Shown piece by piece: positions 5,098-27,065 of a DNA stretch of 64,000 nt. Position numbers and translations under genes: made by a program. Location: positions 186,001-250,000 of the forward strand of contig SVIG01000003.1 of assembly GCA_015071005.1 (NCBI GenBank). The letters are read 5' to 3'. Each line of letters begins with the position of its first letter. Within the stretch, counting starts at the first letter, position 1. The notes below the pieces were generated by a model, which worked only from the letters and a program-made list of their open reading frames with translations, ran no database searches and had not been told where the DNA came from. Source of the stretch: Clostridiales bacterium (GTDB lineage Bacteria; Bacillota; Clostridia; Christensenellales; Borkfalkiaceae).

Positions 5098-6399
5098 TTA
5101 CTCTACAATATCCAAAATCAACGGCTCAGCTTTCGGTGGATTGGTTTCAATACGCGTTGCATTAAGCAATCTCTCTTCCGCCGCGGCAAAACCGCTCTCT
5201 TTTTCCGAATATAATACGGCGATTTTATCGCCAACCTTGACGAAATCCCCCGTTTTCGCGCAAAGATATATACCTGCCGCAGGATCGATGACGTCTTCTT
5301 TCGTGTTTCTACCAGCACCAAGGAGCAAGCTTGCCACGCCGTAGCTTTCCGTATCTACACCCGTAATATAGCCTTCCTTTTTCGCCGTGACTACGTATTC
5401 GTATTTCGCTTTGGGGAATTTTTCAGGATGCAAAATCCATTCCTTATCTCCGCCCTGCGCATCAACCATATCCGCAAACGTTTTGAGCGCCGTACCGCTT
5501 GCAATCGCGTCTTTGGCGAGCTTTTCACATTCCGCATAGCTGCCCTTTTCCGCTAAATTCAAAATATGCGCCGCGAGTGCAATACACAGCTCCGTTAAAT
5601 CCTTAGGACCGTTGCCATTCAGCGTTTCAATCGCTTCGATAACTTCCAAGGAATTTCCAATCGCATAGCCCAAAGGCCTATCCATGTCCGTGATGAGTGC
5701 GCGCATACGCTTCCCTGCACGCTTACCGATTTGCACCATCCATTCCGCAAGTTCGCGGCTCTTTTCAGGCGTTTTCATGAACGAGCCGCTGCCCGTTTTT
5801 ACGTCCAAAACGATACAATCGTCGTCCGCTGCGAGTTTTTTGCCCATAATACTCGAAACAATCAAAGGCAAGCTATCCACCGTCGCCGTCACGTCGCGAA
5901 GCGCATACAAAAGCTTATCCGCAGGCGCAAGGGACGCGGTTTGTCCGACAATCGCAATCCCCACGCGATTTACAATCTTCTTGAACTCGTCTACGGGGAT
6001 ATCAGTATTAAAACCAGGGATTGCTTCCAGCTTATCGATTGTGCCGCCCGTGTGACCAAGCCCACGACCGCTCATTTTTGCAACCTTGACGCCCAAACTC
6101 GCTACGATAGGCGCAACGACTAAGCTCGTCTTGTCCCCTACGCCGCCCGTGGAATGCTTGTCCACGCGCAAACCGTTGATTTCCGAAAAATCCAAGCGCT
6201 CGCCCGAATCACGAACGGCAAAAGTAAGCGCCGTCGTTTCTTCCAAGTTCATACCGCGGAAATAAATCGCCATACAAAGCGCGGCTACTTGATAATCGGG
6301 AATGTTCCCCTGCACGTAATTTTCAATAAACCATTGAATCTCCGCTTCACTTAAAGGATTGCCGTCCCGTTTCTTTTGTATGATGTCATACATTCTCAT
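5098..6399 (-). CDS. pdp: Pyrimidine-nucleoside phosphorylase
   Basis: Cleaves thymidine, deoxyuridine or uridine with phosphate to the base and (deoxy)ribose-1-phosphate. At 433 residues it has the normal length for the thymidine/pyrimidine phosphorylase family. The family signature SGRGLGHTGGTIDKLE lies at about 109-124, preceded by the phosphate-binding KHSTGGVGDKTS at about 80-91. The C-terminal barrel-sandwich hybrid domain (about 340-430) is present. It follows cdd by 9 bases, which suits a pathway in which cytidine is first deaminated to uridine. The specificity (Pdp or DeoA) cannot be settled by eye. Confidence 0.93.
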   Translation of the reverse strand: MRMYDIIQKKRDGNPLSEAEIQWFIENYVQGNIPDYQVAALCMAIYFRGMNLEETTALTFAVRDSGERLDFSEINGLRVDKHSTGGVGDKTSLVVAPIVASLGVKVAKMSGRGLGHTGGTIDKLEAIPGFNTDIPVDEFKKIVNRVGIAIVGQTASLAPADKLLYALRDVTATVDSLPLIVSSIMGKKLAADDDCIVLDVKTGSGSFMKTPEKSRELAEWMVQIGKRAGKRMRALITDMDRPLGYAIGNSLEVIEAIETLNGNGPKDLTELCIALAAHILNLAEKGSYAECEKLAKDAIASGTALKTFADMVDAQGGDKEWILHPEKFPKAKYEYVVTAKKEGYITGVDTESYGVASLLLGAGRNTKEDVIDPAAGIYLCAKTGDFVKVGDKIAVLYSEKESGFAAAEERLLNATRIETNPPKAEPLILDIVE

Positions 6400-6408
6400 A
6401 ATGCTTGT

Positions 6409-6813
6409 TTACTCCAAATCGTTTTTCCCAAAAGACAAAGGCAAAAGCTCTTCCAAAGTAGAAACTTGTATATTGTCAAGGTTGCCCATAATAATGCGGA
6501 AATTCTTATCGCAAAACTCCGCCATTACTTGTCTACAAATGCCGCAGGGCGCGCAAAAATCCGCAATAGACTCGTACCTGCCCCCCACGATTGCGATAGA
6601 AACGAATTCGCGCTCCCCTTCGCTAACCGCTTTGAAAAACGCCGTTCTTTCCGCGCAGTTCGTAGGCGTATACGCTGCGTTTTCTACGTTGCAACCCGTA
6701 TATACTTTGCCGCTTTTACCCAAAAGCGCCGCCCCTACCTTAAAGCCCGAATAGGGCGAATAGGACATTTTTCTCGCTTCGATTGCCCGTTCCATCAACG
6801 CACGATCCGTCAT
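6409..6813 (-). CDS. cdd: Cytidine deaminase
   Basis: Converts cytidine and deoxycytidine to uridine and deoxyuridine, feeding the neighbouring pyrimidine phosphorylase. The 134-residue length is typical of the small tetrameric zinc enzyme. The motifs are TGCNVENAAY, NCAERTAFFKA (zinc Cys and catalytic Glu) and PCGICRQVMAEF (two zinc Cys). The start codon overlaps the end of deoB by 4 bases (ATGA type), indicating coupled translation. Confidence 0.95.
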   Translation of the reverse strand: MTDRALMERAIEARKMSYSPYSGFKVGAALLGKSGKVYTGCNVENAAYTPTNCAERTAFFKAVSEGEREFVSIAIVGGRYESIADFCAPCGICRQVMAEFCDKNFRIIMGNLDNIQVSTLEELLPLSFGKNDLE

Positions 6814-7973
6814 TTTACAATCTCCTTATAATAACTCTTACCGAAAATCGCGCTATCGTCCAAGCCGAACCACTCCAAGACGGTCGAACCAATGTCTGCA
6901 AAGCTTTCTCTCGTACCGAGATTTACCCCTTCTTTCACCTTCGCCCCATAAGCAATCATCGGTGTATACTCACGCGAATGGTCGGTAGACGGCGTGGAAG
7001 GATCGCAGCCGTGATCCGCCGTGATAATGAGCAAATCCTCTTCTTTAAGCAAGGGCAAAAGCTCGCCCAAGCGTTTATCAAACGCCGTCAAAGCGCGCGC
7101 ATAGCCCGCCACGTCATTTCTATGCCCATAAACCATATCAAAATCCACGAGATTGACAAAACATAAACCGTTAAAATCACGCTTGGCAATAGCCAAAGTC
7201 TTGTCCATACCATCTTCGTTGCCCGACGTGGGATAACTTTCCGTAAAGCCTTGTCCCGCAAAAATATCGTAGATTTTGCCGATGGAAATGCTGTCCAACC
7301 CTGCCTCTTTTATGATATCGGGCATCGTTTTGCTCGGCGGCACCAACGAATAATCGTGACGGCGCGGCGTCCGCTTGAAGGGATACTCCCCATTGAACGG
7401 ACGCGCAATAATGCGCCCAACGCCGTGCTTGCCTTGCAGCAATTCTCTCGCGATTTTGCAATAGCGATAAAGCTCTTCTACGGGCACAATATCTTCGTGC
7501 GCCGCGATTTGGAACACACTATCCGCCGACGTGTAGATAATCAATTTGCCCGTGCGCAAATGTTCTTCGCCGTAATCTTTGATAACCTCCGTACCCGAAT
7601 AAGGTTTGTTACAAAGCGTACCCCTACCCGTCGCCTTTTCAAACGCCGAAACGACTTCTTCGGGGAAACCGTCAGGGTAGGTAGGAAGGGGCTCGGGAGA
7701 ATAAATCCCCGCGATTTCCCAATGCCCGATCGTCGTATCCTTACCCTTGGATGTTTCCGTCATTCGGGCATAGCAGGTACGCGACGAAGCGATTTTATTC
7801 TCTATTCCGTCTATACTGAAAAGCCCCATCTTCGTGAGGTTGGGGCAATCAAATTCCGCATGATTGCGAATGGCAGCAAGCGTGTTGCTGCCTTCGTCGT
7901 GCCAATTGGCAGCGTCGGGCATTTCACCAATACCCATGCTGTCCAAAACAATCAAAAATACTCTTTTTGCCAT
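6810..7973 (-). CDS. deoB: Phosphopentomutase
   Basis: Interconverts (deoxy)ribose-1-phosphate and -5-phosphate, linking nucleoside phosphorolysis to the aldolase DeoC. It is an alkaline-phosphatase superfamily metalloenzyme: the metal site near the N-terminus reads FLIVLDSMGIGEMPDA, and the later sites are HRNDVAGY and ITADHGCDPS...TDHSREYTP. I place the start at the ATG at 7973, which has AAAGGAGAG seven bases upstream and gives about 387 residues; an in-frame start 36 bases earlier would run into deoD. The gene lies between deoD and cdd. Confidence 0.95.
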   Translation of the reverse strand: MAKRVFLIVLDSMGIGEMPDAANWHDEGSNTLAAIRNHAEFDCPNLTKMGLFSIDGIENKIASSRTCYARMTETSKGKDTTIGHWEIAGIYSPEPLPTYPDGFPEEVVSAFEKATGRGTLCNKPYSGTEVIKDYGEEHLRTGKLIIYTSADSVFQIAAHEDIVPVEELYRYCKIARELLQGKHGVGRIIARPFNGEYPFKRTPRRHDYSLVPPSKTMPDIIKEAGLDSISIGKIYDIFAGQGFTESYPTSGNEDGMDKTLAIAKRDFNGLCFVNLVDFDMVYGHRNDVAGYARALTAFDKRLGELLPLLKEEDLLIITADHGCDPSTPSTDHSREYTPMIAYGAKVKEGVNLGTRESFADIGSTVLEWFGLDDSAIFGKSYYKEIVK

Positions 7974-7989
7974 TAGGCTCTCCTTTGTT

Positions 7990-8697
7990 TTACGCAAGCC
8001 CCAAAGCAATTTCCATCATCTTCGTGAAGGAATTTTGTCTTTCTTCCGCCGTCGTATTTTCTTCGGGATAAATAAACGAGTCGCTTACCGTACAAATGCA
8101 AAGCGCTTTTTTCCCCGCTCTTGCCGCGTTGCAGTAAAGTGCCGCAGATTCCATTTCTACGCCGAGTACGCCCATCTTCGACCATTGCATACCCGAATTT
8201 GCATCGTCGTAAAACATATCCGAAGACAGTATGTTCCCAACGCGATAATTTACGCCTGCTTTTTCACATTCTTCCACCGCGCGACGAACCAAATCAAAGT
8301 CCGCAATCGGGCTGAAAGTACCGGGTAAATTATACTGCGAAGCATAGTTTCCATTCGTACATGCCCCCATCGCAACGATAATATCTCGCACATGCAAATC
8401 GGGCGAGAAAGAGCCGCAAGAGCCTACGCGAATAATTGCGTCGACGTCATAGAAATTGAAAAGCTCGTACGAGTAAATACCGATCGAGGGTTGCCCCATA
8501 CCCGAAGCCATAACGGAAACGCGTTTGCCTTTATAATAACCCGTATAACCTTGTACGCCACGCACGTCGTTGACGAGCACAGCATTTTCCAAATAATTTT
8601 CTGCAATAAATTTCGCACGTTTCGGATCACCCGGCATCAAAACCGTCTTCGCAAAATCACCGAGTTTTGCGGAAATATGCGGTGTAGGTACTCCCAT
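7990..8697 (-). CDS. deoD: Purine-nucleoside phosphorylase, DeoD type
   Basis: Phosphorolyses purine (deoxy)nucleosides to base and (deoxy)ribose-1-phosphate. The 235-residue protein has the hexameric DeoD hallmarks: N-terminal TPHISAKLGDFAKTVLMPGDPKRA, the phosphate and nucleoside site ASGMGQPSIGIYSYEL, IIRVGSCGS and VLGVEMESAALY. The acid near the end is SDSF (position of the catalytic Asp). AAAAGGAGA precedes the ATG. It follows deoC by 28 bases and precedes deoB. Confidence 0.96.
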   Translation of the reverse strand: MGVPTPHISAKLGDFAKTVLMPGDPKRAKFIAENYLENAVLVNDVRGVQGYTGYYKGKRVSVMASGMGQPSIGIYSYELFNFYDVDAIIRVGSCGSFSPDLHVRDIIVAMGACTNGNYASQYNLPGTFSPIADFDLVRRAVEECEKAGVNYRVGNILSSDMFYDDANSGMQWSKMGVLGVEMESAALYCNAARAGKKALCICTVSDSFIYPEENTTAEERQNSFTKMMEIALGLA

Positions 8698-8725
8698 AAT
8701 TTTTATCTCCTTTTTTTTCTTTTAA

Positions 8726-9394
8726 TCAATAGCCCTTGCCTTCAACGCCTTGTACGGCTTTAACGACACGACTCGTGCCAAGTCTAGAAGCTCCTGCATC
8801 CAAAAACGCTTGGGCGTCTTCCAAACCTGAAATACCGCCCGCCGCTTTGACAAGCACTTTTTCACCAACGTTTGCGCGCATTAGACGCACGTCTTCAAGC
8901 GTTGCGCCAGCTTTCGAAAAACCCGTAGAGGTCTTAATATAGTCTGCGCCGGCTTCCGTAACGAGCTTGCACATGCGCACCTTTTCCTCTTCCGTCAAAA
9001 GGCAAGTTTCAATAATAACTTTCAAGATTTTTTCGCCGCAAGCTTTTTTGATTTGAGCGATTTCATCGCACACCTGCCCGTCGCATTCCGCTTTCAAAAG
9101 CCCGATATTGATGACCATATCAATTTCGTCCGCGCCGTTTGCAATCGCGTCTTGCGTTTCAAAAACTTTAACCGCCGTCGTGTTATAACCGTTCGGAAAC
9201 CCGATAACCGTACAAATTTTCAGCTTGTCCCCTACGTACTCTTTCGCTTGCTTTACGTAGCTGGGCGGAATACATACGGACGCCGTACCGTATTGCATCC
9301 CTTCGTCGCAAATTTTGCGGATTTGTTCCCACGTCGCCGTCTGCCCAAGCAACGTATGATCACACGTGGATAAAATTTTTTTCGTATCTAACAT
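8726..9394 (-). CDS. deoC: Deoxyribose-phosphate aldolase
   Basis: Splits deoxyribose-5-phosphate into glyceraldehyde-3-phosphate and acetaldehyde. The sequence shows the class I aldolase pattern: [36 protein letters not shown] (Asp of the proton relay), [10 protein letters not shown] and the Schiff-base segment [16 protein letters not shown] start it at 9394, where GGGAG lies 8 bases upstream. The earlier in-frame ATG at 9424 overlaps the -10 element of the promoter, so it cannot be in the main transcript. It is the first gene of the deoC-deoD-deoB-cdd-pdp operon. Confidence 0.95.
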
Positions 9395-9429
9395 ATTTTT
9401 TCTCCCGTCAAAATATTTTTCCAAATTCC

Positions 9430-9458
9430 ATTATACCTCTTTTTCTCTCGACTGTCAA
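9430..9458 (-). promoter_or_regulatory. Consensus promoter of the deo operon
   Basis: On the minus strand TTGACA (9453-9458) and TATAAT (9430-9435) are separated by exactly 17 bases. A second TTGACA lies 9 bases further upstream (9462-9467), giving a tandem 9-bp repeat TTGACAGTC. Transcription should begin near 9423, leaving a leader of about 30 bases to the deoC ATG. Such a perfect promoter usually implies a repressor, but no clear operator palindrome was seen. Confidence 0.9.
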
Positions 9459-9626
9459 GACTGTCAAGGAATTTTTTTAGCAAATAGCACCAATTTTCGT
9501 TGTTTTTTAGCAAAAAAACGCACTTTTTTCGTGTTTTTTATCTCCACCGAACAACGAACAAATTTTCGCCCCCTTTATTGAAAATAAATTATCCACATTT
9601 TTTTTGGTTTTTTGTTGAAAAAAGGT

Positions 9627-9655
9627 TTGCTTTTTGTCGAAAGAAGTGTTATTAT
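9627..9655 (+). promoter_or_regulatory. Promoter of the RDD-ABC transporter operon
   Basis: TTGCTT and TATTAT with a 17-base spacer lie about 57 bases upstream of the RDD gene, and TGT precedes the -10. The spacer contains TGTCGAA (9635-9641), identical to the Spo0A box core of Bacillus; this may be chance. The 230 bases between this and the divergent deo promoter are AT-rich with long T runs, and no gene was seen in them. Confidence 0.65.
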
Positions 9656-9712
9656 AGGAGCGTGTTAGTGTAGAGAAGTATGGTCTCAAAGATTTGAAAA
9701 AGGAAATTAAGT

Positions 9713-10666
9713 ATGACAATTACGATGCAAAAAGCAAGCTTGTGGAAGAGAGTTTCCGCTTGGGTATTCGACTTGATTTTGTCGATCACGATTGCCATCG
9801 GCGTGGCTTTCGTTGTATCCTCCATTGTAAAATACGATGATTACAATGCGAAAATGCAAGCGAAATATGAGCAATATGAAGTTGCTATGCAATTAGAATA
9901 CGACCAATTGGCGGAATCTGGAAATTACGATAAAGACTATAAAATTGACATCACTATCTCGGATGAGGAATTAGAGAAGCTCCCCCAAGAAGTAAGGGCT
10001 ATCTACGAAGAAGCGGAAGAAGCTTTCTCCGAGGATCCCGAAGTGCATGATATTCAAGCACGCATCTTCGAGCTTTCCATTCTCATTCTTAGCGTAAGCG
10101 CATTCTCCGCATCCTTTATTTGGCAATTCATTATCCCCTTACTATTCAAAAACGGTCAAACGCTTGGTAAGAAATGTTTTTCCATTGCGGTTATGCGAAC
10201 AAACTCCGTCAAAGTGTCCAACTCCGTACTATTCGTGCGCTCTATCCTCGGTGGATATGCAATCGAAACGATGGTGCCGTTGTTGATGATTTTGATGCTG
10301 TACTTTGGCATACTCGGCTCTATGGCGCTGATCATTATTGGACTTATCTTGATTTTGCAAGTCGTAGTAATGATTATGTCAAAAACAAACTCCACCATTC
10401 ACGACCTTCTCTCCGATACCGTTGTGATTGATATGAGTACGCAAAAGATTTTCGAAAGCGAGGATGCGTTGCTGGCATATAAGGAAATGAGTGCGGCAAT
10501 CGAAGCGGCGCATGCCAATGGTGACGAATATCGCCCCGTTGACCTTTTCGGCAGTGCAACCTATCGCTCGGAAGAAGAAAATAACGACGCAAGTCCATTG
10601 AAAGCTCCTTCCATTCAAGAACCCACTAACGAAGAAAATAATCAAGATTCCGAAATGGAAAATTGA
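9713..10666 (+). CDS. RDD-family membrane protein
   Basis: The 317-residue protein has an RDD domain split by a long insert. The start KRVSAWVFDLILSITIAIGV carries the R-x-x-A-x-x-x-D motif in helix 1. A charged, coiled-coil-like stretch follows (about 40-110). Then come a second helix, FKNGQTLGKKCFSIAVM and two more helices, ending NSTIHDLLSDTVVID as in RDD proteins. The C-terminus (about 250-317) is acidic and cytoplasmic-looking. The biochemical role of RDD proteins is poorly known. It is the first gene of the unit containing the sugar-type ABC importer, with only 40 bases to the ATPase gene. Confidence 0.8.
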   Translation: MTITMQKASLWKRVSAWVFDLILSITIAIGVAFVVSSIVKYDDYNAKMQAKYEQYEVAMQLEYDQLAESGNYDKDYKIDITISDEELEKLPQEVRAIYEEAEEAFSEDPEVHDIQARIFELSILILSVSAFSASFIWQFIIPLLFKNGQTLGKKCFSIAVMRTNSVKVSNSVLFVRSILGGYAIETMVPLLMILMLYFGILGSMALIIIGLILILQVVVMIMSKTNSTIHDLLSDTVVIDMSTQKIFESEDALLAYKEMSAAIEAAHANGDEYRPVDLFGSATYRSEEENNDASPLKAPSIQEPTNEENNQDSEMEN

Positions 10667-10681
10667 TGAAAAATAGAGAAA

Positions 10682-10706: not shown

Positions 10707-11915
10707 ATGAAAGTAGAATTAAAAAATTTAACCAAAATCTTCCCCAGTCGCAACAAAAAGTCTGGTGAAGAAGTTGTCGCGGTAAACGATTTCACGTTTA
10801 CCATCCCCGACGGTAAGCTTGTAGGCTTGCTCGGCCCTTCCGGCTGCGGTAAGAGTACCACGCTTTACATGATCAGCGGTTTGCAAAAGCCCTCCGGTGG
10901 CCGTATCTTCTTCGGTGAAGAAGACGTTACGGATCTTTCCCCCGAAAATAGAGGGATTGGTTTGGTTTTCCAAAACTATGCACTCTATCCGCACATGACC
11001 GTTCAACAAAACATTTTGTTCCCCCTGCAAAACTTGCGCGGTAAAGACAAAATGAGCAAGAGCGCGATGCTTGAGAGAGCCTTAAATGCTGCAAAACTCG
11101 TGCAAATCGACAACTTGATGGATAGAAAACCCAGCGAACTTTCCGGTGGTCAGCAGCAACGTGTTGCCATCGCGCGCGCACTCGTTAAAATGCCTCGCGT
11201 ATTACTCCTTGACGAGCCCCTTTCAAACCTCGACGCACGTTTGCGTTTGCAAACCCGTGAAGAAATTAGAAGAATTCAAAAGGAAACGGGCATCACGACC
11301 GTATTCGTAACGCACGACCAAGAAGAAGCGATGAGTATCTCCGATATTATCGTCGTTATGAAACTCGGCGTTGTACAACAAGTCGGTAAGCCTCAAGACA
11401 TTTACGATTCGCCCGTAAATCTCTTCGTTGCGAAATTCCTTGGCACACCTCCTATTAACGTATTCAAAGGTCGCGTAGAAGACGGCAAGCTTTACATAGG
11501 CGAAGACGCTGTGATGGATATCACGGACGTTGAAAATAAAGAGGTATTCGTTGCGATTCGTCCCGAAGGCTTTATCCCTTGCCCGGACGGCGCTTTGAAA
11601 TGCGCACTTTCCAACTTGGAAGTTATGGGTCGCGACGTGAGCATCGTATCCCGTCACGACGCATCGGTAAATCCTATCGTTCGTTCCATTGTTGACGCGG
11701 ATAACAAGATCGACTTGACGGCTCAAACCGTAAACTTCTCCTTGAAACCTCATAAAGTATTCCTTTTCGACGTCGAAACGGAAGAAAGAGTCTATTTCGG
11801 CGTAGAAGGTTTGAATCTTCCTACCGCTCCCGTAGTAGAAGAACCTGCAGAAGTAGAAGAAACGGTGGCAGAAGTAGCTCCCGTTGAAGAAAACGTTGAA
11901 GCAGAGGTGGAATAA
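10707..11915 (+). CDS. ABC importer ATPase, MsmK/UgpC type
   Basis: Energises the two permeases that follow. Walker A is GPSGCGKST (43-51), the Q-loop is in VFQNYALYPHMTV, the signature is LSGGQQQR (145-152), Walker B is VLLLDE (165-170) and the switch His is in FVTHDQEEA. The C-terminal regulatory TOBE region (about 235-370) is shorter and more divergent than in MalK. It is followed by an unusual 30-residue acidic tail rich in Glu and Val. GGGAGG is a strong ribosome site. MsmK-type ATPases can serve several CUT1 importers, but here the gene is linked to its own permeases. Confidence 0.9.
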   Translation: MKVELKNLTKIFPSRNKKSGEEVVAVNDFTFTIPDGKLVGLLGPSGCGKSTTLYMISGLQKPSGGRIFFGEEDVTDLSPENRGIGLVFQNYALYPHMTVQQNILFPLQNLRGKDKMSKSAMLERALNAAKLVQIDNLMDRKPSELSGGQQQRVAIARALVKMPRVLLLDEPLSNLDARLRLQTREEIRRIQKETGITTVFVTHDQEEAMSISDIIVVMKLGVVQQVGKPQDIYDSPVNLFVAKFLGTPPINVFKGRVEDGKLYIGEDAVMDITDVENKEVFVAIRPEGFIPCPDGALKCALSNLEVMGRDVSIVSRHDASVNPIVRSIVDADNKIDLTAQTVNFSLKPHKVFLFDVETEERVYFGVEGLNLPTAPVVEEPAEVEETVAEVAPVEENVEAEVE

Positions 11916-19900: not shown

Positions 19901-21526
19901 GTAAACGATACCGACTATTGGTTCGGTACGAGAAACGATAAGACCTACACCACGATGGGTCCTTGCGCGGTTTCCTATAAAGGTTTCTACGGTGAATTCT
20001 ACACCAACTCTAACGAAGGCGGCGAAACGCCCGATCCCGAACTTCCTCCCATTGAACACGAACACGTTTTTGTTGACGGTAAATGCGAATGCGGCGAAGA
20101 AGATCCCAACTACGTTCCTCCCCACGAACACAACTATGAAGCAGTTGTTACTGCTCCTACTTGTACGGAAGCTGGCTATACGACCTACACTTGCTCCTGC
20201 GGCGACAGCTATACGGCTGACGAAGTAGCGGCAACGGGTCACAACTACGTTGACGGCGCTTGCTCCGTTTGCGGTCTTGCAGAAGTTCACGAACACAATT
20301 ATGAAGCCGTTGTAACTGCTCCTACCTGTACGGCAGCTGGTTTCACGACCTACACCTGTGCTTGCGGCGACAGCTATACGGAAGAAGGCGAAGCGGCTAC
20401 GGGTCACAGCTACAACTCCGTTGTAACCGATCCTACCTGCGGTGTTGCTGGCTATACGACCTACACCTGCTCGCTTTGCAACGACAGCTACGTTGCTGAT
20501 GAAGTTGCTGCTACGGGCGAACACAGCGGCTACGCTGAAGATTACAAGTGCGATGCATGCTCTATGGTTGTTGAACCCGAAGCTGACACAACGCTTACTC
20601 TTGCACAGGCTATTAAATTGGCAGACGCTCTTGGCATTGGTAAATATTCCACCAATAGCTACTATTTGACCTGCGAAATCGTAAACATTTATAACACCCA
20701 ATACGGCAATGCAAACGTTACGGACGCTGACGGTACAGATTACGTACTCTATGGCTTATATAAGGATGGCGTAAGATATGACTCTCTTGAATACAAGCCT
20801 GTAAAGGGTGACACAATTACCGTTTACGGCCCTGTTGGTAGCTACAATGCGACGTCCTATCAAATGAAGAACGCAGAAATCACGGAAATCGTTGCTCATA
20901 CGCATGATTACCAAGACGTTGTGACGGAACCTACTTGTACGGCTGACGGCTACACCACCCATACCTGCTCGATTTGCGAAAATACCTACACCGATTCTGA
21001 AGTAGCGGCTACGGGTCACAATTACGTTGAAGGCACATGCTCCGTTTGTGGTGCAGTAGAAGGCGCTCAACCAGTTGTTTCTCCCCTTGCAACCTTCGAA
21101 TTTGGTGCAAATGGTACTGCAGCGCATGTTGACGGCAACGATCTCGGCACAAGCAAGTCTTACACGGAAAACGGCTATACGCTTGCTTTAACTGATATGA
21201 GCAAAGTTTATGGCGTTGCATACGACGCAACAGGCAACTCCTGTATCAAGCTTGGTACGTCTTCTAAAGCAGGTAGTTTTTCGTTCACCGTTGATGAAAA
21301 CGTAACGGAAGTAATCATTAAAGTTGCTGGCTATAAAGCTAACAATGGGCAAGTAATTATCAATGATACGTCTTATACTATTAATACGACGTCCAACAAT
21401 GGTGAATATACGGAAATCAAAATTGATACCACTGAAACGAAAGCGATTACGTTGTCCACTGGTTCGACCAAAGCTACCTATCGTGCAATGATCAACTCTA
21501 TCACGTTTGTTGGTAATGCGCAATAA
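16901..21526 (+). CDS. Giant repeat-containing surface lipoprotein with OB-fold modules
   Basis: This 1541-residue lipoprotein has lipobox LGGC (18-21). From the N-terminus it carries two bacterial Ig-like stretches (about 45-150 and 325-412). An OB-fold module (about 415-525, starting LTIPQALEIGK) and a beta-sandwich-like segment (about 540-675) follow. Next come two near-identical 182-residue units containing GKAYIFGMTQGNLNN, each beginning with a Gly-Glu-Pro-rich linker and HEHVFVDGKCECG. Then come three Cys-rich repeats (GYTTYTCSCGDSYT-like), a second OB module (about 1228-1335), a fourth Cys-rich repeat and a C-terminal beta domain. No catalytic motif is seen. It is probably an adhesin or ligand-binding scaffold working with the nuclease encoded just upstream. 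Confidence 0.8.
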   Translation: MKKQFLGILAMLSCFAFLGGCLEDTAADKNSIPGNSITSEAPGEGAVVNFKAVKAILKGMYDQDVYSYNNVDFEVTNVIPDVQGTDYTLTWSVDVDSVKLERNGDVTKVNVDEASPVDVDYVLTATITAPNGESDTQNFRFTVKAVSQYVTATITGKPLENTPYKFHLYQSSLQQDMYFAGAMDGYYFKTTTESSEAVDIYAEYVEGSETNFNLYFKKDVVDAASGETQKDVKHYIGMRVSADGGHNNIVFDTAGPVSEFYWSDTYKTIITMLDEDRDGNKNVEFYLGNYGTLKTISGSVASQHYGKDGNNVGNLVGLVDRTTVPAADKVANTINTLGLKNSYQCDTEVDLPERGAMYPEVLISWACDSELVTIEGGKMTFANVTDATEVVLKATVTCGDISETKDVTITIASALPADGSTLTIPQALEIGKNLVTETTQKYYISGTITGFYTNGTTYGNVYIKDAEGNEILIYGLYSEDGSVRYDKMETKPVEGDFIKVYGVLTQYNGTAQFKNAWLIEHVVGEGGGEGGGDVVDPTPDANSYELSFADVANRTQGDTTIQVWEQNGIKVTNNKASSTSNVNLNYYNPVRFYKNSEVIIEFPGMTKLVVVSNKNYSDNPYVDYFTQALPVGTNFTVEDTTITIVFPAAQDSFTFTCSAGQVRLMSLTVYSGEVGGGETPDPELPPVEHEHVFVDGKCECGAEDPNYEAPVEGEWTTVVPEVGKAYIFGMTQGNLNNTVYYLAGGMDGYYMATTTDASAAIQTYIEATDGGYYFYTYVNDVKTYINMVVSGTHINGAYEATASTVYTIDETNKTLIAVVNDTDYWFGTRNDKTYTTMGPCAVSYKGFYGEFYTNSNEGGETPDPELPPVEHEHVFVDGKCECGEEDPNYVPPVEGELTAVVPEVGKAYIFGMTQGNLNNTVYYLAGGMDGYYMATTTDASAAIQTYIEATDGGYYFYTYVNDVKTYINMVVSGTHVNGAYEATASTVYTIDETNKTLIAVVNDTDYWFGTRNDKTYTTMGPCAVSYKGFYGEFYTNSNEGGETPDPELPPIEHEHVFVDGKCECGEEDPNYVPPHEHNYEAVVTAPTCTEAGYTTYTCSCGDSYTADEVAATGHNYVDGACSVCGLAEVHEHNYEAVVTAPTCTAAGFTTYTCACGDSYTEEGEAATGHSYNSVVTDPTCGVAGYTTYTCSLCNDSYVADEVAATGEHSGYAEDYKCDACSMVVEPEADTTLTLAQAIKLADALGIGKYSTNSYYLTCEIVNIYNTQYGNANVTDADGTDYVLYGLYKDGVRYDSLEYKPVKGDTITVYGPVGSYNATSYQMKNAEITEIVAHTHDYQDVVTEPTCTADGYTTHTCSICENTYTDSEVAATGHNYVEGTCSVCGAVEGAQPVVSPLATFEFGANGTAAHVDGNDLGTSKSYTENGYTLALTDMSKVYGVAYDATGNSCIKLGTSSKAGSFSFTVDENVTEVIIKVAGYKANNGQVIINDTSYTINTTSNNGEYTEIKIDTTETKAITLSTGSTKATYRAMINSITFVGNAQ
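18926..20017 (+). repeat. Two tandem 546-bp coding repeats
   Basis: Unit 1 is 18926-19471 and unit 2 is 19472-20017; a third, truncated copy of the linker part continues to about 20120. The spacing is exactly 546 bases (182 codons) at every landmark I checked. The two units are nearly identical at the DNA level, including third codon positions, implying recent duplication or gene conversion. Confidence 0.95.
20122..20530 (+). repeat. Three tandem Cys-rich coding repeats
   Basis: Three consecutive modules of about 43-46 residues follow the pattern PTC-x-x-x-GYTTYTC-x-x-C-x-x-SY, then ATG(H/E). A fourth copy lies at about 20917-21050 after the second OB fold. The paired CxxC motifs suggest small metal- or disulphide-stabilised stalk modules. 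Confidence 0.85.
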
Positions 21527-21553
21527 TTTAGAATATGTATTCTAAAAAAAACG

Positions 21554-21585
21554 GAAACGCTCCTTCGGGAGCGTTTCTTGTTTTC
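21554..21585 (+). terminator. Terminator of the importer/nuclease operon
   Basis: A 10-bp GC-rich stem (GAAACGCTCC / GGAGCGTTTC) closed by a TTCG tetraloop is followed by TTGTTTTCT. It lies 28 bases after the giant lipoprotein gene and is the first terminator seen after the promoter at 9627. Confidence 0.85.
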
Positions 21586-21607
21586 TATGCCGTTTCTTTA
21601 ATTTTGA

Positions 21608-21636
21608 TTGACTATCTCCCCCCTTTGTGCTATAAT
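21608..21636 (+). promoter_or_regulatory. Promoter of the barnase-like lipoprotein gene
   Basis: TTGACT and TATAAT are separated by 17 bases, with an extended -10 (TGC directly before TATAAT). The ATG lies 35 bases downstream behind TAAGGAG. Confidence 0.9.
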
Positions 21637-21671
21637 ATTCAAGATGACCACACTTTAAGGAGTATTTACCT

Positions 21672-23126
21672 ATGAAAGCTTGGAAAAAGCTTTGCTTATT
21701 ATTGGCGGCTTTCTTTGCGTTTACCGCTGCGCCTGCGTGCAATCCTGATTCTTTTAAGGATTCCGAAAGCGTAGCTTCAACGGAAAATGAAAGCACCACG
21801 CCCGAAAATAGCGAAAATGGCGAAAGCACCGCCCCCGAAACAAGCGAAACGCCCGATTCGGAAATTCCTGAAAATTCGGAATCTTCAGAAGACGTGGAAG
21901 ACCCCGAAATGGCACTTGCCGAACAAATTATGGACGAGGCGTACGCGCTTGCCTATAACGGAGAAATGGACGGCATCTACACCCTTTGGGGTACGGTGAC
22001 GGAAATTACGACGAAATATTCCTCAAGCAAAGGCGTCACGTTGATTATGCGCGTACATGAGCCGCAAAACCGCACGATGATGTGCTATCAGCTCAAGGGC
22101 GACGGCGCGAGTCTTATTAGCGTGGGCTATAAAATTAAAGTGACGGGCTCGATTAAAAATTATAAAGGCCAAGTGGAATTTGACAAGGGCTGCTATTTGC
22201 TTTCCTACGAGTACGGTTCGATTGACGGCGGCGAGGATTTGCCCGACGTTGGAAACGATCCTTACGCGAATATGACGGAAGATGCTTTCTATCAAAACTA
22301 CGCGCCTGCAACGAGCAACGAGGACGCGTACTACCGCTCCTTGCACGGTTTTATGTCGGGCGAGCTGGAAACACCCGATCAAGAGCCTACCCTTTCGAGT
22401 CATCAACCGAGCCGCAACGGAACGCTTATCCGCAACAGCGAAATGCAGTTCTCGGAAGACGGAAAGGCTTATACCGTAGTCGACGCATACGGCGCACCTG
22501 CCTTCACCGTCTATCGCGACGGCGGCTATATCACTTTGGAAGAAGTGGCGGCGTACGTGTACGCGTTCGGTACCGTTCCCAAAAACTACGATTCGGACAA
22601 AAACGCCGATCCCGATTACAGCATTTGGGGGGAATATTTGCGCGTGAACAACACGCCTTTCTCGGGCAGTACGAGCAAGTACCCTTACGAACCCGAGCTT
22701 CCGAACATTAGCGGCTGCGGCGGTAGCTTGAATTATTACGAAATCGATATCGGTACGACAGGTACGGACTGCGATCCGAGCTACCCTATCAAAATCTACA
22801 ATAACGGCTCAAGCATTACGCGCGGCGCGGCGCGTATTGTCTACGGCAAAAACGACCTTGACCGAGACGGCGTGTACGAAGTGAACGAACACCACGTTTT
22901 CTACACCTACAATCACTACAACGATTTCCAAGAATATCTCAACTACGAAGGCGGTTGGGGGAAAATGTTCGGGAATATTACGGGCGGCGGTAGCCTTTCG
23001 AGCAAATACGACTACAATCCCACCGACTACGTACAAATTTACTTGGAAGAATTGCCTATCGCGCGCTACTGCGCGTTCGCAACCGTCCACGCGAACGACG
23101 CTTGGGAATATTTCCAAGCCGTATAA
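21672..23126 (+). CDS. Secreted lipoprotein with OB fold and C-terminal barnase-like RNase domain
   Basis: The signal peptide ends at APAC (Cys23). A Ser/Glu/Thr/Pro linker (24-80) follows, then an OB-fold-like domain (about 82-180). Residues about 285-420 align with barnase: EVAAYVYAFGTVPKNYDSDK matches the barnase segment GVADYLQTYHKLPDNYITKS. The catalytic set is present with correct local spacing: Glu357 in YEIDI (barnase E73), Arg384 and Arg388 in RGAARIVYG (R83, R87), and His415-Tyr416 in YNHYNDF (H102, Y103). The residues after 425 are extra. It should cleave RNA outside the cell. It has its own promoter, next to the SNase-type operon. A pseudo-enzyme is possible but unlikely with all residues kept. 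Confidence 0.72.
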   Translation: MKAWKKLCLLLAAFFAFTAAPACNPDSFKDSESVASTENESTTPENSENGESTAPETSETPDSEIPENSESSEDVEDPEMALAEQIMDEAYALAYNGEMDGIYTLWGTVTEITTKYSSSKGVTLIMRVHEPQNRTMMCYQLKGDGASLISVGYKIKVTGSIKNYKGQVEFDKGCYLLSYEYGSIDGGEDLPDVGNDPYANMTEDAFYQNYAPATSNEDAYYRSLHGFMSGELETPDQEPTLSSHQPSRNGTLIRNSEMQFSEDGKAYTVVDAYGAPAFTVYRDGGYITLEEVAAYVYAFGTVPKNYDSDKNADPDYSIWGEYLRVNNTPFSGSTSKYPYEPELPNISGCGGSLNYYEIDIGTTGTDCDPSYPIKIYNNGSSITRGAARIVYGKNDLDRDGVYEVNEHHVFYTYNHYNDFQEYLNYEGGWGKMFGNITGGGSLSSKYDYNPTDYVQIYLEELPIARYCAFATVHANDAWEYFQAV

Positions 23127-23152
23127 CCGCCCAAATTTAACGAAATATATTA

Positions 23153-23187
23153 AAAGCAGGTATTCCCACGGGAAATACCTGCTTTAT
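23153..23187. terminator. Bidirectional terminator
   Basis: A long hairpin (AAAGCAGGTATTCCC / GGGAAATACCTGCTTT, one bulge) lies between the convergent lipoprotein and surE genes and serves both. Confidence 0.85.
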
Positions 23188-23210
23188 TCGTTTTAAAGCC
23201 GTTTTTAGGC

Positions 23211-23939
23211 TTATTTTTCCTCTTTCATTCTATACTTCTCAAACACCTTCATATCCGTACGCGTCGTAAGCAAGGGGGTGATGGAAATATAGCCTTTGAA
23301 AATGGCCACCGTGTCGCGATCGCAATCATCGGGGCAGACGTCGGGAATGGGTTCCCCTTCCTGCACGTAGATATCCCCTTCCTTCAAGATAAATCGATCC
23401 GAGAAATAGGGCGAGCCTTGGTAGGTCATACGGATTGCCTTCGGTTCGCTCGGAATGTTTACGTTGAAAAGCAAACACTCGTCAAAAAGCTTGTTTTTCA
23501 TGATATAATCGTACACTTGGTCGAAATACGCCGAAGCCTTTTCCTGACCGTCGGGGAATGCCGAAAACGCGATGGCAGGAATCCCCATACGCGCCGCCTC
23601 GAAAATCGCGCCGCACGTACCAGAGTACACGAGATCCGCACCCAAGTTCACGCCGCAGTTGATACCCGACAGCACGAGATCGAACTTATTTTCAAGCGCG
23701 AGCGTGCCAAAACGCACGCAGTCCGCGGGCGTAGACGACATTGAATACGCCGTGATTCCGTCGATAAACGGTACTTTTTTGATTTCTACGGGCGTGATAA
23801 AGTCGATTGCGTGGCTTTTGCCGCTTTGCTCTACTTTCGGCGCGACTACCGTCACTTCGCCTAACTTTTGCGCCCATTTAGCAAGCAGGCGAATACCGAG
23901 CGTATCCACCCCATCGTCGTTCGTAATCAATATTCTCAT
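23211..23939 (-). CDS. surE: 5'-nucleotidase SurE
   Basis: Dephosphorylates nucleoside 5'- and 3'-monophosphates, and often short polyphosphates. The SurE metal-binding signature is at the N-terminus (RILITNDDGVDTLGI), with VVAPKVEQSGKSHAI, SSTPADCVRFG and VLSGINCGVNLG later. The start at 23939 is preferred: its ATG overlaps the upstream stop as ATGA, with AAGG upstream; a TTG two codons earlier is the alternative. It is the last gene of the dgt-DHH-DHH-surE unit, making nucleosides for the phosphorylases encoded at 5-9 kb. Confidence 0.95.
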   Translation of the reverse strand: MRILITNDDGVDTLGIRLLAKWAQKLGEVTVVAPKVEQSGKSHAIDFITPVEIKKVPFIDGITAYSMSSTPADCVRFGTLALENKFDLVLSGINCGVNLGADLVYSGTCGAIFEAARMGIPAIAFSAFPDGQEKASAYFDQVYDYIMKNKLFDECLLFNVNIPSEPKAIRMTYQGSPYFSDRFILKEGDIYVQEGEPIPDVCPDDCDRDTVAIFKGYISITPLLTTRTDMKVFEKYRMKEEK

Positions 23940-24919
23940 AACCAACCTTGATTCTGTTCCTTATATTCTTTCAAAAGCGCGTCCGCGTCCGCCAAAAGCG
24001 CGTTCATTTCCGCCTTGGAGTACACCGTAGCGCCGCAAGCGCAAGCATGTCCGCCGCCATGGTATTTTTCCGCCAATTCGCTCACCGTCACGAAACGGGA
24101 ACGAAGTCTTACGCGAATCGAGCCGTCGCCGTTGTCGATAAACGCAATCCAAATGAGCGAGTCCTTAATCGAATCCATACACGATACGGAAGCGCTTGCT
24201 TGCTCGTTGGACAAACTAAATTTTTTCTTCATTTTCTTCGTGACGAACAAGGACGCTACGCCGTGCTTGCTAATCTTCATTTTCTTATGCGCGTACGCTT
24301 CGAATTTGAACTCGTCGAAGTCCTTCAAATACAAGTTCGAATAGATAAACTCCACATCGATATTTTGATTGAGCATCAACCCTGCAAGGCGCATCGTTTC
24401 GCCCGATACGTCGCGGAAACGGAATCTGCCTGAATCGGTGACCATACCCGTGAAAATATAGGTCGCCGCTTCTTTCGTCAGCTTTAATTCGTCCTTAAAC
24501 GTATCGTAAAACGCCGCGATCATTTCACAGGTGGAAGAACGTTCTTCTTCTACCCATTCCGTTGCGCCGTAAGACTGCACGGGAATATGATGATCAATCT
24601 TAATAAGCTCCTTGCAAAGCTCGTACTTTTTATTGGAAATACGTTCTTGCGTAGCCGTGTCCAGCACGATCCCAAGCGCGTCTGCGTATGCTTCGTTAGG
24701 TAACGGCTCGTCCTCTTTGCCCAAAAATGCAAGGTAATTGGAAAAATCGGCGTTTTGCAAATAGATTTCCTTTTCGGGATAGGTCGCTTTCAAAATCGCC
24801 TGCAAACCCTTTGTCGAGCCAACCGCGTCACCGTCGGGACGGAAATGACGGAAAATGATAATCTTTTGATTTTCCTTGATTTTGTCTAAAACTTTTTTCA
24901 TATTGTCAATATTGCTCAT
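23936..24919 (-). CDS. DHH/DHHA1 phosphoesterase, NrnA-like (copy 2)
   Basis: Member of the nanoRNase/pAp-phosphatase group that degrades very short oligonucleotides or 3'-phosphoadenosine phosphate. About 327 residues. The metal motifs are intact: FRHFRPDGDAVGS, LDTATQERIS, the DHH motif KIDHHIP and VTDSGRFRFRD; the DHHA1 substrate loop is GGGHACACGA. The start at 24919 has AAGGAGAAG upstream and overlaps the stop of the preceding paralogue by 4 bases. It differs clearly from its neighbour, so the duplication is old. c-di-AMP-type substrates cannot be excluded. Confidence 0.88.
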   Translation of the reverse strand: MSNIDNMKKVLDKIKENQKIIIFRHFRPDGDAVGSTKGLQAILKATYPEKEIYLQNADFSNYLAFLGKEDEPLPNEAYADALGIVLDTATQERISNKKYELCKELIKIDHHIPVQSYGATEWVEEERSSTCEMIAAFYDTFKDELKLTKEAATYIFTGMVTDSGRFRFRDVSGETMRLAGLMLNQNIDVEFIYSNLYLKDFDEFKFEAYAHKKMKISKHGVASLFVTKKMKKKFSLSNEQASASVSCMDSIKDSLIWIAFIDNGDGSIRVRLRSRFVTVSELAEKYHGGGHACACGATVYSKAEMNALLADADALLKEYKEQNQGWL

Positions 24920-25860
24920 TGTGCTTCTCCTTTTATAAATGCGTTCAAGTCTTCCAAAAGCGCCATAGCTTCCGCGCGGTCCTTCACCGCCGCGCCGCAC
25001 GCTTTTGCGTGACCGCCGCCACCGTATTTTACCGCAACAGGCTGCACCGTGTACTTGCTCGAACGGATTTCAACGAGTACCTTATCTTCCGTTTCCGTGA
25101 AGTTCACCCAAATATCCACGCCGCGAAGATCGGACATTGTGCCCACCATACCGCGCGAAATCGTGAACGTATCCGTATTATAGCTTGCAAGCTCTTCTTT
25201 CGTCGTATAAATGTACGCTACGTTATACTCAGTGAATTGAATTTTCAAAACAAATTGCGCGCGCAACCGCACGAAGAAGAAATCGTCGGCGTAAAGCTGG
25301 GAATAAATGCTGTTCACATCGAACTTTTGCGCCATTAGCGCGGACGCCAAGCGAAAGGTATTCGAGGTCGTGGAGTCGTAGCGGAATCTACCCGAGTCGG
25401 TGACCATACCCGTATACAACGCCTTTGCCGATTCAGGCGAAAGCGCCAAACCGCATTCCAGCGCGAGCTCGGTGATCAGTCCGCAACAACTCTCATACGA
25501 CGTATCCACAATTTCGATATCCGCGAAGTTTTCGCAGTAAATATGATGATCGATACGAATCACCTTCGCCGCCTTTTTGTAGCGGTCATCTGAAACGAGG
25601 GAGCTGGAACCGCAGTCGAGAATAAACGCGAGCGCGCCTTCGTACTCACTATCGGCGATTTCGTCCATCGTCGAGCCGTCCATAAAGGAATACCGCTTCG
25701 CATCGTCGCCGACTACGTACACGGTTTTTGCGGGGAAATTATCCTTGATGATATGTTTCAAACCGATTTGGCTGCCCAAAGCGTCGCCGTCGGGGCTGGA
25801 ATGTCTGTGAATAATGATTTTTTCGTAATTTTTTATCTCGGTTAATACTTGTTCAAACAT
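24916..25860 (-). CDS. DHH/DHHA1 phosphoesterase, NrnA-like (copy 1)
   Basis: Paralogue of the next gene, 314 residues. Motifs: IHRHSSPDGDALGSQ, LDCGSSSL, RIDHHIYCENFADI, VTDSGRFRYDS and the DHHA1 loop GGGHAKACGA, so all metal ligands are present. It starts 5 bases after the dgt stop. Expected activity is hydrolysis of 2-5 nt oligonucleotides or pAp. Two such genes in tandem, translationally coupled, suggest division of substrates or a hetero-oligomer. Confidence 0.88.
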   Translation of the reverse strand: MFEQVLTEIKNYEKIIIHRHSSPDGDALGSQIGLKHIIKDNFPAKTVYVVGDDAKRYSFMDGSTMDEIADSEYEGALAFILDCGSSSLVSDDRYKKAAKVIRIDHHIYCENFADIEIVDTSYESCCGLITELALECGLALSPESAKALYTGMVTDSGRFRYDSTTSNTFRLASALMAQKFDVNSIYSQLYADDFFFVRLRAQFVLKIQFTEYNVAYIYTTKEELASYNTDTFTISRGMVGTMSDLRGVDIWVNFTETEDKVLVEIRSSKYTVQPVAVKYGGGGHAKACGAAVKDRAEAMALLEDLNAFIKGEAQ

Positions 25861-25865
25861 GGTCT

Positions 25866-27065
25866 TTACTCGTCAAAATATCCTTTGTAACGTAATTTAT
25901 ATGCCGAATTTGGGAATAAGCGTTCGTGCAATTCAATGAAATAATCATCCGTCATACTCGCGATATAGTCGACTACAAGCTGATTCGCTTCCGTCTTTTC
26001 GTACGGCGTTTCGCGGACGACTTTTTGCTGATTGACTTGACGGATATGATGGGTGAAAATGGGCGAGCTTTGCACGTTCCCTTTCACGTCGTCGAGAAGT
26101 TGATTATATACCTCTTCCATCATCGGTTGGATATTCCCTTTTAGCCCCGTGTGTTCTATTGAATGATTATAAATCTTTTCGTAGTTTTCTTTTTTGGCTT
26201 TACGAAGCGCGTCGAAATGCGCGCTATCCAGCTTGATATACGGCTTGCCGTAGCTGTTTTCGATAACGTTTACAATCAAATTATCGACCATTTCCGCGTT
26301 TCCGAACCCAATTTCGTGGGTAGTGAAATCCGATTCCTGCACCGCTTTGGCTAAAATCGCGTCCTGACGGTCCTTGCCCAAATACGCGATAATATCGGAA
26401 ATGCGCACCACCGCGCCTTCTAACGTGCAGGGCATAATTTTATCCGCGAACTTTTTATCAAGCGCACACTTTTCCATGATTTCATCGAATTGTGCAAAAC
26501 TCTTAATAGGCACCGGACGGTATTCGTCGAGCTCCATTTCCCCATTATGACTTGCAATCCCGTTCAAGGTTTGCAAGGTCAAATCGTAGGCGTGGATTTT
26601 ATCGAGTACGCGGACAGAATGAATGTTATGCAAAAATCTTCTACCCGTGTGTTGATAATAAAGCTCATCCAAGAGCTTTTCGCCCGTGTGTGCGAAAGCA
26701 GGGTGTCCAACATCGTGACCGAGCGCAATCGCTTCGATCAGCTCCAAGTTTAAGCCAAGCGCCCTGCCGATGGTGCGCGAAATGCGCGAAACCAACTGCA
26801 CGTGCAGGCTTCTTCTCGTCATATCGTCGTTTTTATACAAGGAAAAAACCTGCGTTTTATCCGCGTAACGACTGAAATACGGGCAATGCATAATCGTATC
26901 CACGTCGCTGATAAACGGCGAGTTCCAAGCGCGCGAACTATCCGTCGTCGCTGACCGACGAAGCGCCTTTTCATCGTTGAAACCAAAGCCGATCGCCGCG
27001 CGAAGACGGTTGTTTTTGCAAATGATTTCATTCAATTCCTTGGAAAGTGCTTTTTTATTCGACAT
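25866..27065 (-). CDS. dgt: HD-domain dGTPase-like triphosphohydrolase
   Basis: Hydrolyses dGTP or other dNTPs to deoxynucleosides and triphosphate. Key residues are the HD-superfamily metal ligands: RRSLHVQLVSRI (His), LGHDVGHPAFAHTGE (His-Asp and the second His) and a later Asp in RISDIIAYLGKDRQ. About 400 residues, close to the shorter dGTPase-like proteins of Gram-positive bacteria. I chose the ATG at 27065 because TAGGGATGG lies just upstream; an ATG 15 bases earlier is also in frame, but very close to the predicted transcription start. First gene of the nucleotide-degradation unit. Confidence 0.88.
   Translation of the reverse strand: MSNKKALSKELNEIICKNNRLRAAIGFGFNDEKALRRSATTDSSRAWNSPFISDVDTIMHCPYFSRYADKTQVFSLYKNDDMTRRSLHVQLVSRISRTIGRALGLNLELIEAIALGHDVGHPAFAHTGEKLLDELYYQHTGRRFLHNIHSVRVLDKIHAYDLTLQTLNGIASHNGEMELDEYRPVPIKSFAQFDEIMEKCALDKKFADKIMPCTLEGAVVRISDIIAYLGKDRQDAILAKAVQESDFTTHEIGFGNAEMVDNLIVNVIENSYGKPYIKLDSAHFDALRKAKKENYEKIYNHSIEHTGLKGNIQPMMEEVYNQLLDDVKGNVQSSPIFTHHIRQVNQQKVVRETPYEKTEANQLVVDYIASMTDDYFIELHERLFPNSAYKLRYKGYFDE

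Follow-up and report, generated by a model that had tools for sequence, protein, structure and literature searches.

Genes for nucleases and for importers have been found together before. The operon MAG_5030-5070 of Mycoplasma agalactiae, which joins a staphylococcal nuclease (SNase) with an ATP-binding cassette (ABC) importer of CUT1 type, has been proposed to import nucleic-acid precursors (PMC3585158). In M. bovis, metabolomics showed nucleoside uptake for the UgpE-type permease operon MBOVPG45_0747-0751 (including MBOVPG45_0748), which helps the use of DNA (PMC12838404). The 'DNA-degradation loci' of Izemoplasma co-localize extracellular nucleases, phosphohydrolases and ABC transporters, and one isolate grows on DNA (PMC8289736, PMC8397711). 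P48 has been described as a BMP-type nucleoside binder (PMC12892991), M. tuberculosis UgpB has been linked to glycerophosphocholine (PMC7034087), and a holothurian gut relative is said to use nucleosides (PMC7761423). Here, we analyzed a 64-kb stretch of DNA from a Clostridiales bacterium (hereafter the window), a portion of a 1.69-Mb draft genome in 12 contigs that very probably represents an uncultured species of gut Clostridia. A block at positions 5098 to 27080 of the window combines a CUT1-type importer with a surface SNase and enzymes of nucleotide and nucleoside breakdown, and we consider it probable that this block is a nucleic-acid utilization locus whose importer takes up short oligonucleotides or 3′-nucleotides. 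A preliminary description had regarded the carriage of nucleosides or nucleotides by a CUT1-type importer as undescribed, a claim that gives way to the SNase/CUT1-type operon, the UgpE-type nucleoside import and the nuclease-ABC loci already in print, as far as these sources describe them (PMC3585158, PMC12838404, PMC8289736, PMC8397711).

Gene families were assigned by profile searches against Pfam and NCBIfam. Matches above curated cut-offs were obtained for pdp, cdd, deoB, deoD, deoC and surE, the ATPase (PF00005), two permeases (PF00528), the binding protein (SBP_bac_1/8), the SNase (PF00565), two DHH+DHHA1 proteins and an HD protein. All genes named in the preliminary description of this 22-kb block were thus recovered, with corrections on the barnase-like gene, the giant lipoprotein and dgt as given below. 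The deo genes lie on the minus strand, followed by the genes from RDD to the barnase-like protein on the plus strand and by those for SurE, the two DHH proteins and the HD protein on the minus strand. From the RDD gene through the giant lipoprotein gene the spacing is only 3 to 47 bases, and these genes look like a single operon.

The operon begins with an RDD-family membrane protein (9713..10666, +; PF06271), followed by an ATPase of MalK/UgpC type (10707..11915, +; PF00005), permease F of MalF/UgpA type (11919..13001, +; PF00528; PRK10999 and PRK10561 matches under cut-off), permease G of MalG/UgpE type (13015..13914, +; PF00528; GlcU and UgpE matches under cut-off) and a substrate-binding lipoprotein (13962..15434, +; PF13416, PF01547). 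The best NCBIfam match of the ATPase, UgpC, reached 339 bits against a cut-off of 432, and its C-terminal domain is supported by full-length model coverage, the Pfam match being under cut-off. The full CUT1-type importer previously claimed was therefore present, with binding protein, two permeases and ATPase all matched. Because the best Ugp-, Mal- and Glc-type matches all fall under their cut-offs, no NCBIfam family names its substrate. Directly behind the binding protein lies the gene of an SNase lipoprotein (15465..16859, +; PF00565), whose nuclease domain at about residues 67-215 aligns with the S. aureus nuclease. D81, D83, R102, T108, E110 and R153 were identical in 91 of 91 sequences, so that both the PF00565 domain and the catalytic Asp/Arg/Glu/Arg set of the family are present. 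The position that we take to be D40 in S. aureus numbering is Asn in 86 of the 91.

The genomic association of importer and nuclease was then read across 61 genomes, comprising 36 of the nominal genus, 24 of the order and the window's own. The binding protein was matched in 28 genomes at E 0.001 and in 15 at E 1e-100 or better. SNase family matches were found in 18 genomes, 15 of which are exactly the 15 with close binding-protein orthologues, and in all 15 the SNase gene closely follows that of the binding protein on one contig. Among the other 46 genomes, 43 gave no SNase match and three carry a canonical SNase (scoring 75-86 versus at most 45 bits), one of which, in G039, adjoins another CUT1 importer. 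In gene maps of the orthologues, the order of deo block, importer, SNase and large lipoprotein, often joined by SurE and both DHH genes, was conserved as far as the contigs reach. Two loci from two other families (L020 and L021) keep the importer-SNase part with no adjoining deo genes.

The same picture was obtained from 80 loci, the best 80 of at least 588 confirmed relatives in GTDB genomes, two of which (L048 and L031) duplicate G013 and G024. In 79 of the 80, the binding-protein gene is immediately followed by SNase, and in the remaining one (L032) the contig ends there. Many of the loci are cut by contig ends; with this limit on every count, we found permease G in 77, permease F in 73, the ATPase in 69, the RDD gene in 66, DHH1 in 41, DHH2 in 40, SurE in 33, a dgt-like gene in 16, deoC in 8, deoB, pdp and deoD in 6 each, and cdd in 5. 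In distance counts, which omit L031 and L048 as lying on the same contigs as G024 and G013, DHH1, DHH2 or SurE starts at most 7 kb downstream in 35 of the 57 loci that show 7 kb. The deo genes stand on the DHH side in some loci (L078, L095 and L113). According to record titles, the loci derive mostly from Clostridia-type gut metagenome-assembled genomes, and several from Spirochaetales or Sphaerochaetaceae. The grouping of importer and nuclease genes exceeds chance. The concern raised in the preliminary description, that the importer might never be linked to nuclease or nucleoside genes in relatives, is answered by near-universal linkage (15 of 15 genomes, 79 of 80 loci) and by the recurrence of nucleotide-catabolism genes nearby.

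These recurrent neighbors included a 5′-3′ exonuclease type (8 loci), thymidine kinase (8), PHP (6) and NT5C-guanylate kinase (4), the names being taken from Pfam scans of one or two members of each cluster. One of the eight exonuclease-type proteins has 856 residues and is perhaps DNA polymerase I, and a fifth cluster (4 loci), classified by look and not Pfam-scanned, is sensor-kinase-like. In L020 (4044-5156) and L082 (15753-16898), an NT5C 5′(3′)-deoxynucleotidase fused with a guanylate-kinase domain lies near the cassette. The neighborhood also bears on whether the importer carries a sugar or a UgpB-like glycerophosphodiester, with the nucleases adjoining for some other reason such as phosphate scavenging. 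Membership of the CUT1 family, nearest models of Ugp, Mal and Glc type, and UgpB among the best PDB matches all point that way. SNase adjacency in 79 of 80 loci points elsewhere, and of the five neighbor clusters found in at least four loci, the four that were scanned are nucleotide- or phosphoester-related, with no glycosidase. We regard a sugar or glycerophosphodiester substrate as very unlikely, and a substrate derived from nucleic acid as highly likely.

A related importer provided a control for this linkage. In 245 genomes of the class, with at most six first-look candidates scored per genome, 15 matches to the binding-protein profile were found at E 1e-60: the window's own, one in another genus of the family (L127, where importer, SNase and large lipoprotein all occur) and 13 scoring 230-264 bits. 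The latter 13 sister importers (L128-L140), from several other families of the class, are 67-71% identical in the ATPase, 45-51% in the permeases and 28-33% in the binding protein. Their gene order is ATPase, two permeases and binding protein, and in 9 of 12 a smaller OB-type-lipoprotein-like protein comes next; L138, for which no binding-protein open reading frame (ORF) was picked, is not among the 12. Within the stretches visible, SNase, DHH, SurE and deo genes were found in 0 of the 12 sister loci with a readable binding protein, and DHH, SurE or SNase in 0 of the 7 that show 7 kb downstream. Since the sister importers come without nuclease genes, nuclease linkage marks one subfamily. Most pocket-like residues also occur in the sister binding protein, which differs at K188 (R), D234 (K) and W239 (M) and has a C-terminal hydrophobic helix in the aligned rows displayed. 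In L106, a sister-type system lies beside the SNase cassette.

The binding protein itself resembles UgpB and a dinucleotide-binding protein, as judged from PDB relatives and the conserved residues Y96, S189, S314 and Y395. Its best solved relatives in a profile search were a 7c0-series chain (E 3e-22) and UgpB (E 1e-15). A single-sequence search of PDB placed both near E 1e-14, the 7c0-series match (phmmer E about 1e-14) being best over residues 175-410. The PDB table labels this Thermus protein as a sugar-binding protein, and we take the 7c0-series entries to be the dinucleotide (UpG)-binding CUT1 protein of Thermus thermophilus. In the alignments displayed, K188 and Q353-G354 are common to the binding protein and the 7c0 chains, whereas UgpB has S and G-G there.

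In Phaeobacter UgpB, the phosphate is described as contacted by Tyr64, Tyr342, Ser143 and Ser266 (PMC12718374). By pairwise alignment with an assumed UgpB numbering, these columns appear to map to Y96, S189, S314 or S315, and Y395 of the window protein. Residue counts were made without L031, L048, L051 and L077 (the last two outside 440-560 aa), and at the phosphate positions also without the 167-aa sister fragment of L106; Y96 was conserved in 85 of 86 cassette proteins, S189, S314 and Y395 in 86 of 86, and S315 in 85 of 86. The mapping passes via E. coli UgpB, whose numbering is assumed. R449, outside the PDB alignment span, is invariant. The glycerol-clamp Trp region of UgpB aligns with residues 236-240, of which W239 and F240 are conserved in the cassette proteins; the two clamp Trp residues presumably fall on A237 and F240, and the UgpB chain aligned shows Ser there. 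The Tyr/Ser conservation favors a phosphorylated ligand, short of proof. Because the sister clade keeps all four positions, this signature alone does not mean nucleotides.

Further relatives of the binding protein were seen outside the cassette. At L027 (7342-11238; G039:C126), from another family, a canonical SNase gene adjoins, in divergent orientation, another CUT1 importer; the binding protein there keeps the Tyr/Ser positions with T at S315 (Y, S, S, T and Y at the Y96, S189, S314, S315 and Y395 columns). This is possibly an independent SNase-CUT1 pairing. The paralogue L026 has F, T, S, C and L at the same columns. G006 carries a second, orphan binding protein (L015:3925-5601; G006:C71) with neither importer nor SNase, a counter-example at the level of paralogues; its neighbors are phosphatase-like, tilS-like and hpt-like by eye. 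No relative was found in the viral contigs scanned with the binding protein.

The enzymes that accompany the cassette bear on whether the imported molecule retains its phosphate. On the minus strand lie SurE, a 5′/3′-nucleotidase (23211..23945; PF01975; TIGR00087 161 bits, cut-off 135), and two NrnA-like DHH/DHHA1 phosphodiesterases, DHH1 (23936..25000, with a probable start near 24919) and DHH2 (24916..25860). The best PDB match of both is NrnA 5j21 (E 6e-59 and 2e-56). The pair has the NrnA domains, motifs and nearest PDB chain, and scored 233 and 235 bits against the NCBIfam NrnA cut-off of 350. By eye, neither the pair nor SurE has a signal peptide. The fourth gene (25866..27080, -; PF01966) had been called dgt; the HD-domain protein is there, but it misses every NCBIfam dGTPase cut-off and is better described as a dGTPase-like phosphohydrolase.

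Co-inheritance was assessed in 34 core-genus genomes. The core-genus comparison omits G001, G002, G032, G045 and G047, the Fisher tables omit also G048 and G052, and G019, whose contig begins inside permease G (L109), was counted as cassette-bearing. The DHH2 type was found in 13 of 14 cassette-bearing and 1 of 20 cassette-free genomes (Fisher p 2e-7, kinship ignored), SurE marked the same genomes as DHH2 within the genus, and pdp of this type (at least 78% identity) was present in 14 of 14 versus 1 of 20, three cassette-free genomes having a pdp at 54-58%. Physical linkage accounts for part of the cassette/DHH2 co-occurrence. The DHH genes of G024 and G054 are on another contig, away from its ends. 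Three genomes labelled as the same genus (G001, G002 and G032) fall among other families on a tree of PyrB and PurM, through mislabelling, contamination or transferred genes.

We weighed a reading in which nucleosides enter through the importer in free form after extracellular dephosphorylation, with the DHH pair and SurE devoted to turnover inside the cell. The deo, pdp and cdd enzymes do act on nucleosides, and BMP importers are absent from the cassette genomes of the core genus (0 of 14 versus 3 of 20 others), a weak difference (Fisher p 0.25). However, none of the block's surface proteins showed a nucleotidase domain in Pfam scans, and the binding protein appears to keep the phosphate-contact positions. 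The DHH pair and SurE accompany the cassette, and most genomes, with or without it, carry a more distant DHH homologue (25-32% identity) that covers housekeeping. We therefore judge free nucleosides to be an unlikely substrate, though the strongest of the competitors, and lean toward a phosphorylated nucleotide or oligonucleotide. Short oligonucleotides or nucleotides fit better than free nucleosides because a UgpB/dinucleotide-like binding protein occurs together with the NrnA-like pair and SurE. The earlier proposal that the CUT1 importer carries nucleosides or nucleotides was accordingly strengthened in its nucleic-acid link by the SNase linkage, and shifted from nucleosides toward short (oligo)nucleotides.

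We also looked for other nucleoside transporters. The window genome gave no match to a BMP binding protein (PF02608), the importer's own binding protein matching SBP_bac instead, and no NupC-type transporter was found in the 61 genomes. The importer thus remains the candidate among the transporter kinds searched, base permeases and other nucleoside transporters not being part of the search. A BMP importer as substitute in cassette-free species was suggested by raw counts (1 of 15 cassette genomes versus 16 of 46 others); given the core-genus result, we do not claim it. Six genomes of the nominal genus have a BMP importer; on the PyrB and PurM tree, three of them lie outside the core and the other three form one clade.

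Outside the cell, two further surface proteins follow the SNase. The giant repetitive lipoprotein (16901..21526, +; 1541 residues) had been read as an OB-fold protein; gene and lipoprotein nature held, and the window protein itself gives only aBig_2 (PF20578). The OB-fold reading comes from lipoproteins at the same place in relatives, with PF01336 at 39.4 bits in L020 and under cut-off in L022. A catalytic domain was looked for and found neither in the window protein nor in six lipoproteins at the same place in relatives. The barnase-type lipoprotein of the preliminary description is likewise present as a barnase-like surface protein (21672..23126, +), its family match being below threshold (PF00545, 20.4 bits against the Pfam cut-off of 24). 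The call is based on this match, which is under cut-off also in two orthologues, and on an active-site Glu/Arg/His triad read by eye; a phmmer search of PDB gave no match at E 0.1. Surface nucleases in pathogens are known to remove biofilm, trap or phage DNA, and if that were their use here the importer would be a bystander. The presence of pyrB and purM in the window genome, by which scavenging is not needed to live, is compatible with this. An SNase in one operon with the importer and linked to catabolic enzymes is not what it predicts, and we consider it the least likely of the explanations, highly improbable on present evidence. Auxotrophy as the driver was ruled out for the markers tested, pyrB and purM both being present and other pathway genes not having been searched; the role is likelier to be nutrition and salvage than rescue of an auxotroph.

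Gene content, order, conservation, co-occurrence and catalytic residues are direct observations. We infer from them a ligand, transport, flux and regulation as follows. SNase yields 3′-phosphorylated mono- and dinucleotides, and barnase-type enzymes yield 3′-phosphates. The surface-anchored SNase, acting on DNA and RNA, and the barnase-like RNase would cut polymers outside the cell, and the giant OB/Ig-type lipoproteins would probably hold substrate or products near the surface. The lipoprotein of the CUT1-type importer would bind the phosphate of oligonucleotides of about 2-4 nt or of 3′-nucleotides, and the importer would take these pieces in. In the cytosol, the two NrnA-like enzymes would reduce oligonucleotides to mononucleotides, SurE would take off 5′ or 3′ phosphates, and Pdp/DeoD, Cdd, DeoB and DeoC would convert the nucleosides to bases, glyceraldehyde-3-phosphate and acetaldehyde.

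Several observations weigh against this scheme. The deo link is rare outside the genus (pdp in 6 of 80 loci), the barnase C-terminal domain occurs in only 10 of 95 loci searched (60-77% identity), and SurE often occurs in cassette-free members of the order (32 of 61 genomes in all carry it). Two incomplete drafts break the pattern: in G020, which bears the cassette, neither DHH2 nor SurE was found, and in G025, which bears DHH2, SurE and pdp, neither binding protein nor SNase was found. On the PyrB and PurM tree we counted at least seven cassette changes and three independent pairs on supported branches; cassette and DHH2 went the same way in 2.8 of 3 pairs on average, a test that cannot reach significance because there are only three such pairs. 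In the sister importer clade, all four phosphate positions are kept although SNase, DHH, SurE and deo genes are absent from the neighborhood. The identity of the 7c0-series entries is assumed. Finally, an M. bovis mutant in a UgpE-type permease is reported as impaired in nucleoside uptake (PMC12838404), which favors free nucleosides.

The deo genes, running divergently from the importer operon, comprise pdp, a pyrimidine-nucleoside phosphorylase (5098..6399, -; TIGR02644 583 bits, cut-off 409), cdd, a cytidine deaminase (6409..6813, -; TIGR01354 146 bits, cut-off 114), deoB, a phosphopentomutase (6810..8009, -; TIGR01696 478 bits, cut-off 341), deoD, a purine-nucleoside phosphorylase (7990..8697, -; TIGR00107 292 bits, cut-off 232), and deoC, a deoxyribose-phosphate aldolase (8726..9424, -; TIGR00126 255 bits, cut-off 117). 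Since family matches to DeoB start at residue 14-16, its true start is probably internal. A sigma-70-type site, TTGACA-17-TATAAT (9430..9458, -; 12/12 match), is the putative deo promoter, and both hexamer regions are conserved in an alignment of 15 intergenic regions. The same alignment showed, with some variation, conservation of the TTTTTGTCGAA motif region upstream of the importer operon. The full motif, TTTTTGTCGAA..GTG.TAT (9631..9652, +), gave a single match in the window with 0 expected, and is a possible operator of the importer operon. A terminator-like stem found by sequence scan at the end of the operon (21553..21578, +) and a promoter-like site (21608..21636, +; 11/12 match) set the barnase-like gene apart. 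Promoter and terminator totals in the window were not above those in shuffled sequence, so support for these sites comes from position and match quality only.

Two further features of the window were recorded. A stretch of low GC (0.34 versus about 0.46) at 46001-50000, just after three tRNA genes, is possibly a mobile insertion; it contains a 641-residue ORF (46575-48500). A 716-residue ORF with no Pfam match (33041-35191) lies between a MATE transporter gene and mfd, and a relative 51% identical lies beside mfd in G024.

Compared with described systems, the M. agalactiae operon is alike in having a solute-binding lipoprotein, an SNase lipoprotein, an ATPase and two permeases on one transcript; it differs in gene order, and the portions of the source available mention no RDD protein, giant lipoprotein, SurE, NrnA-like pair or deo genes (PMC3585158). 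Mycoplasmas cannot make purines or pyrimidines, whereas the window genome has pyrB and purM. The M. bovis operon, likened here by description, likewise has a UgpE-type permease and helps the use of DNA; as described, it contains no SNase and its substrate is nucleosides (PMC12838404). The Izemoplasma loci share nucleases, phosphohydrolases and ABC transporters, and differ by phosphate transporters and by a large protein in which nuclease and lamin-tail domains are combined, the importer family not being stated in the accounts cited (PMC8289736, PMC8397711). BMP/PnrA-type nucleoside importers such as that of P48 likewise import nucleic-acid precursors (PMC12892991), but through a binding protein of another family (PF02608) with no match in the window genome. 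The T. thermophilus 7c0-series protein, the best PDB match of the window binding protein, appears to share the phosphate Tyr/Ser pairs and is distant (phmmer E about 1e-14). The T. thermophilus CUT1 binding protein reportedly binds the dinucleotide UpG; we know of no nuclease context for it, nor of any ABC importer shown to carry oligonucleotides. A search of open-licence literature gave no description that we recognized of this cassette in gut Clostridia.

Nucleic acids from the diet, the host and microbes are plentiful in the gut. We see an even balance for and against the fuller proposal that the importer is a dedicated short-oligonucleotide ABC pathway, suited both to what its own surface SNase releases and to a cytosolic NrnA-like pair reserved for it, which would make the locus a nucleic-acid counterpart of polysaccharide-utilization loci, widespread in gut Clostridia and supplying C, N and P to bacteria that make their own nucleotides. 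Importer, nuclease and internal enzymes are well delimited here and can be tested together. The locus also yields a predicted substrate for a subfamily of CUT1 whose members automatic annotation would label as sugar or glycerol-phosphate importers, and it may suggest what the dinucleotide-binding CUT1 protein of Thermus does. The nuclease-importer theme itself is known; what is new is a variant that combines the SNase-CUT1 pairing, a UgpE-type permease, a binding protein resembling the dinucleotide-binding one and DNA-degradation features in gut Clostridia.

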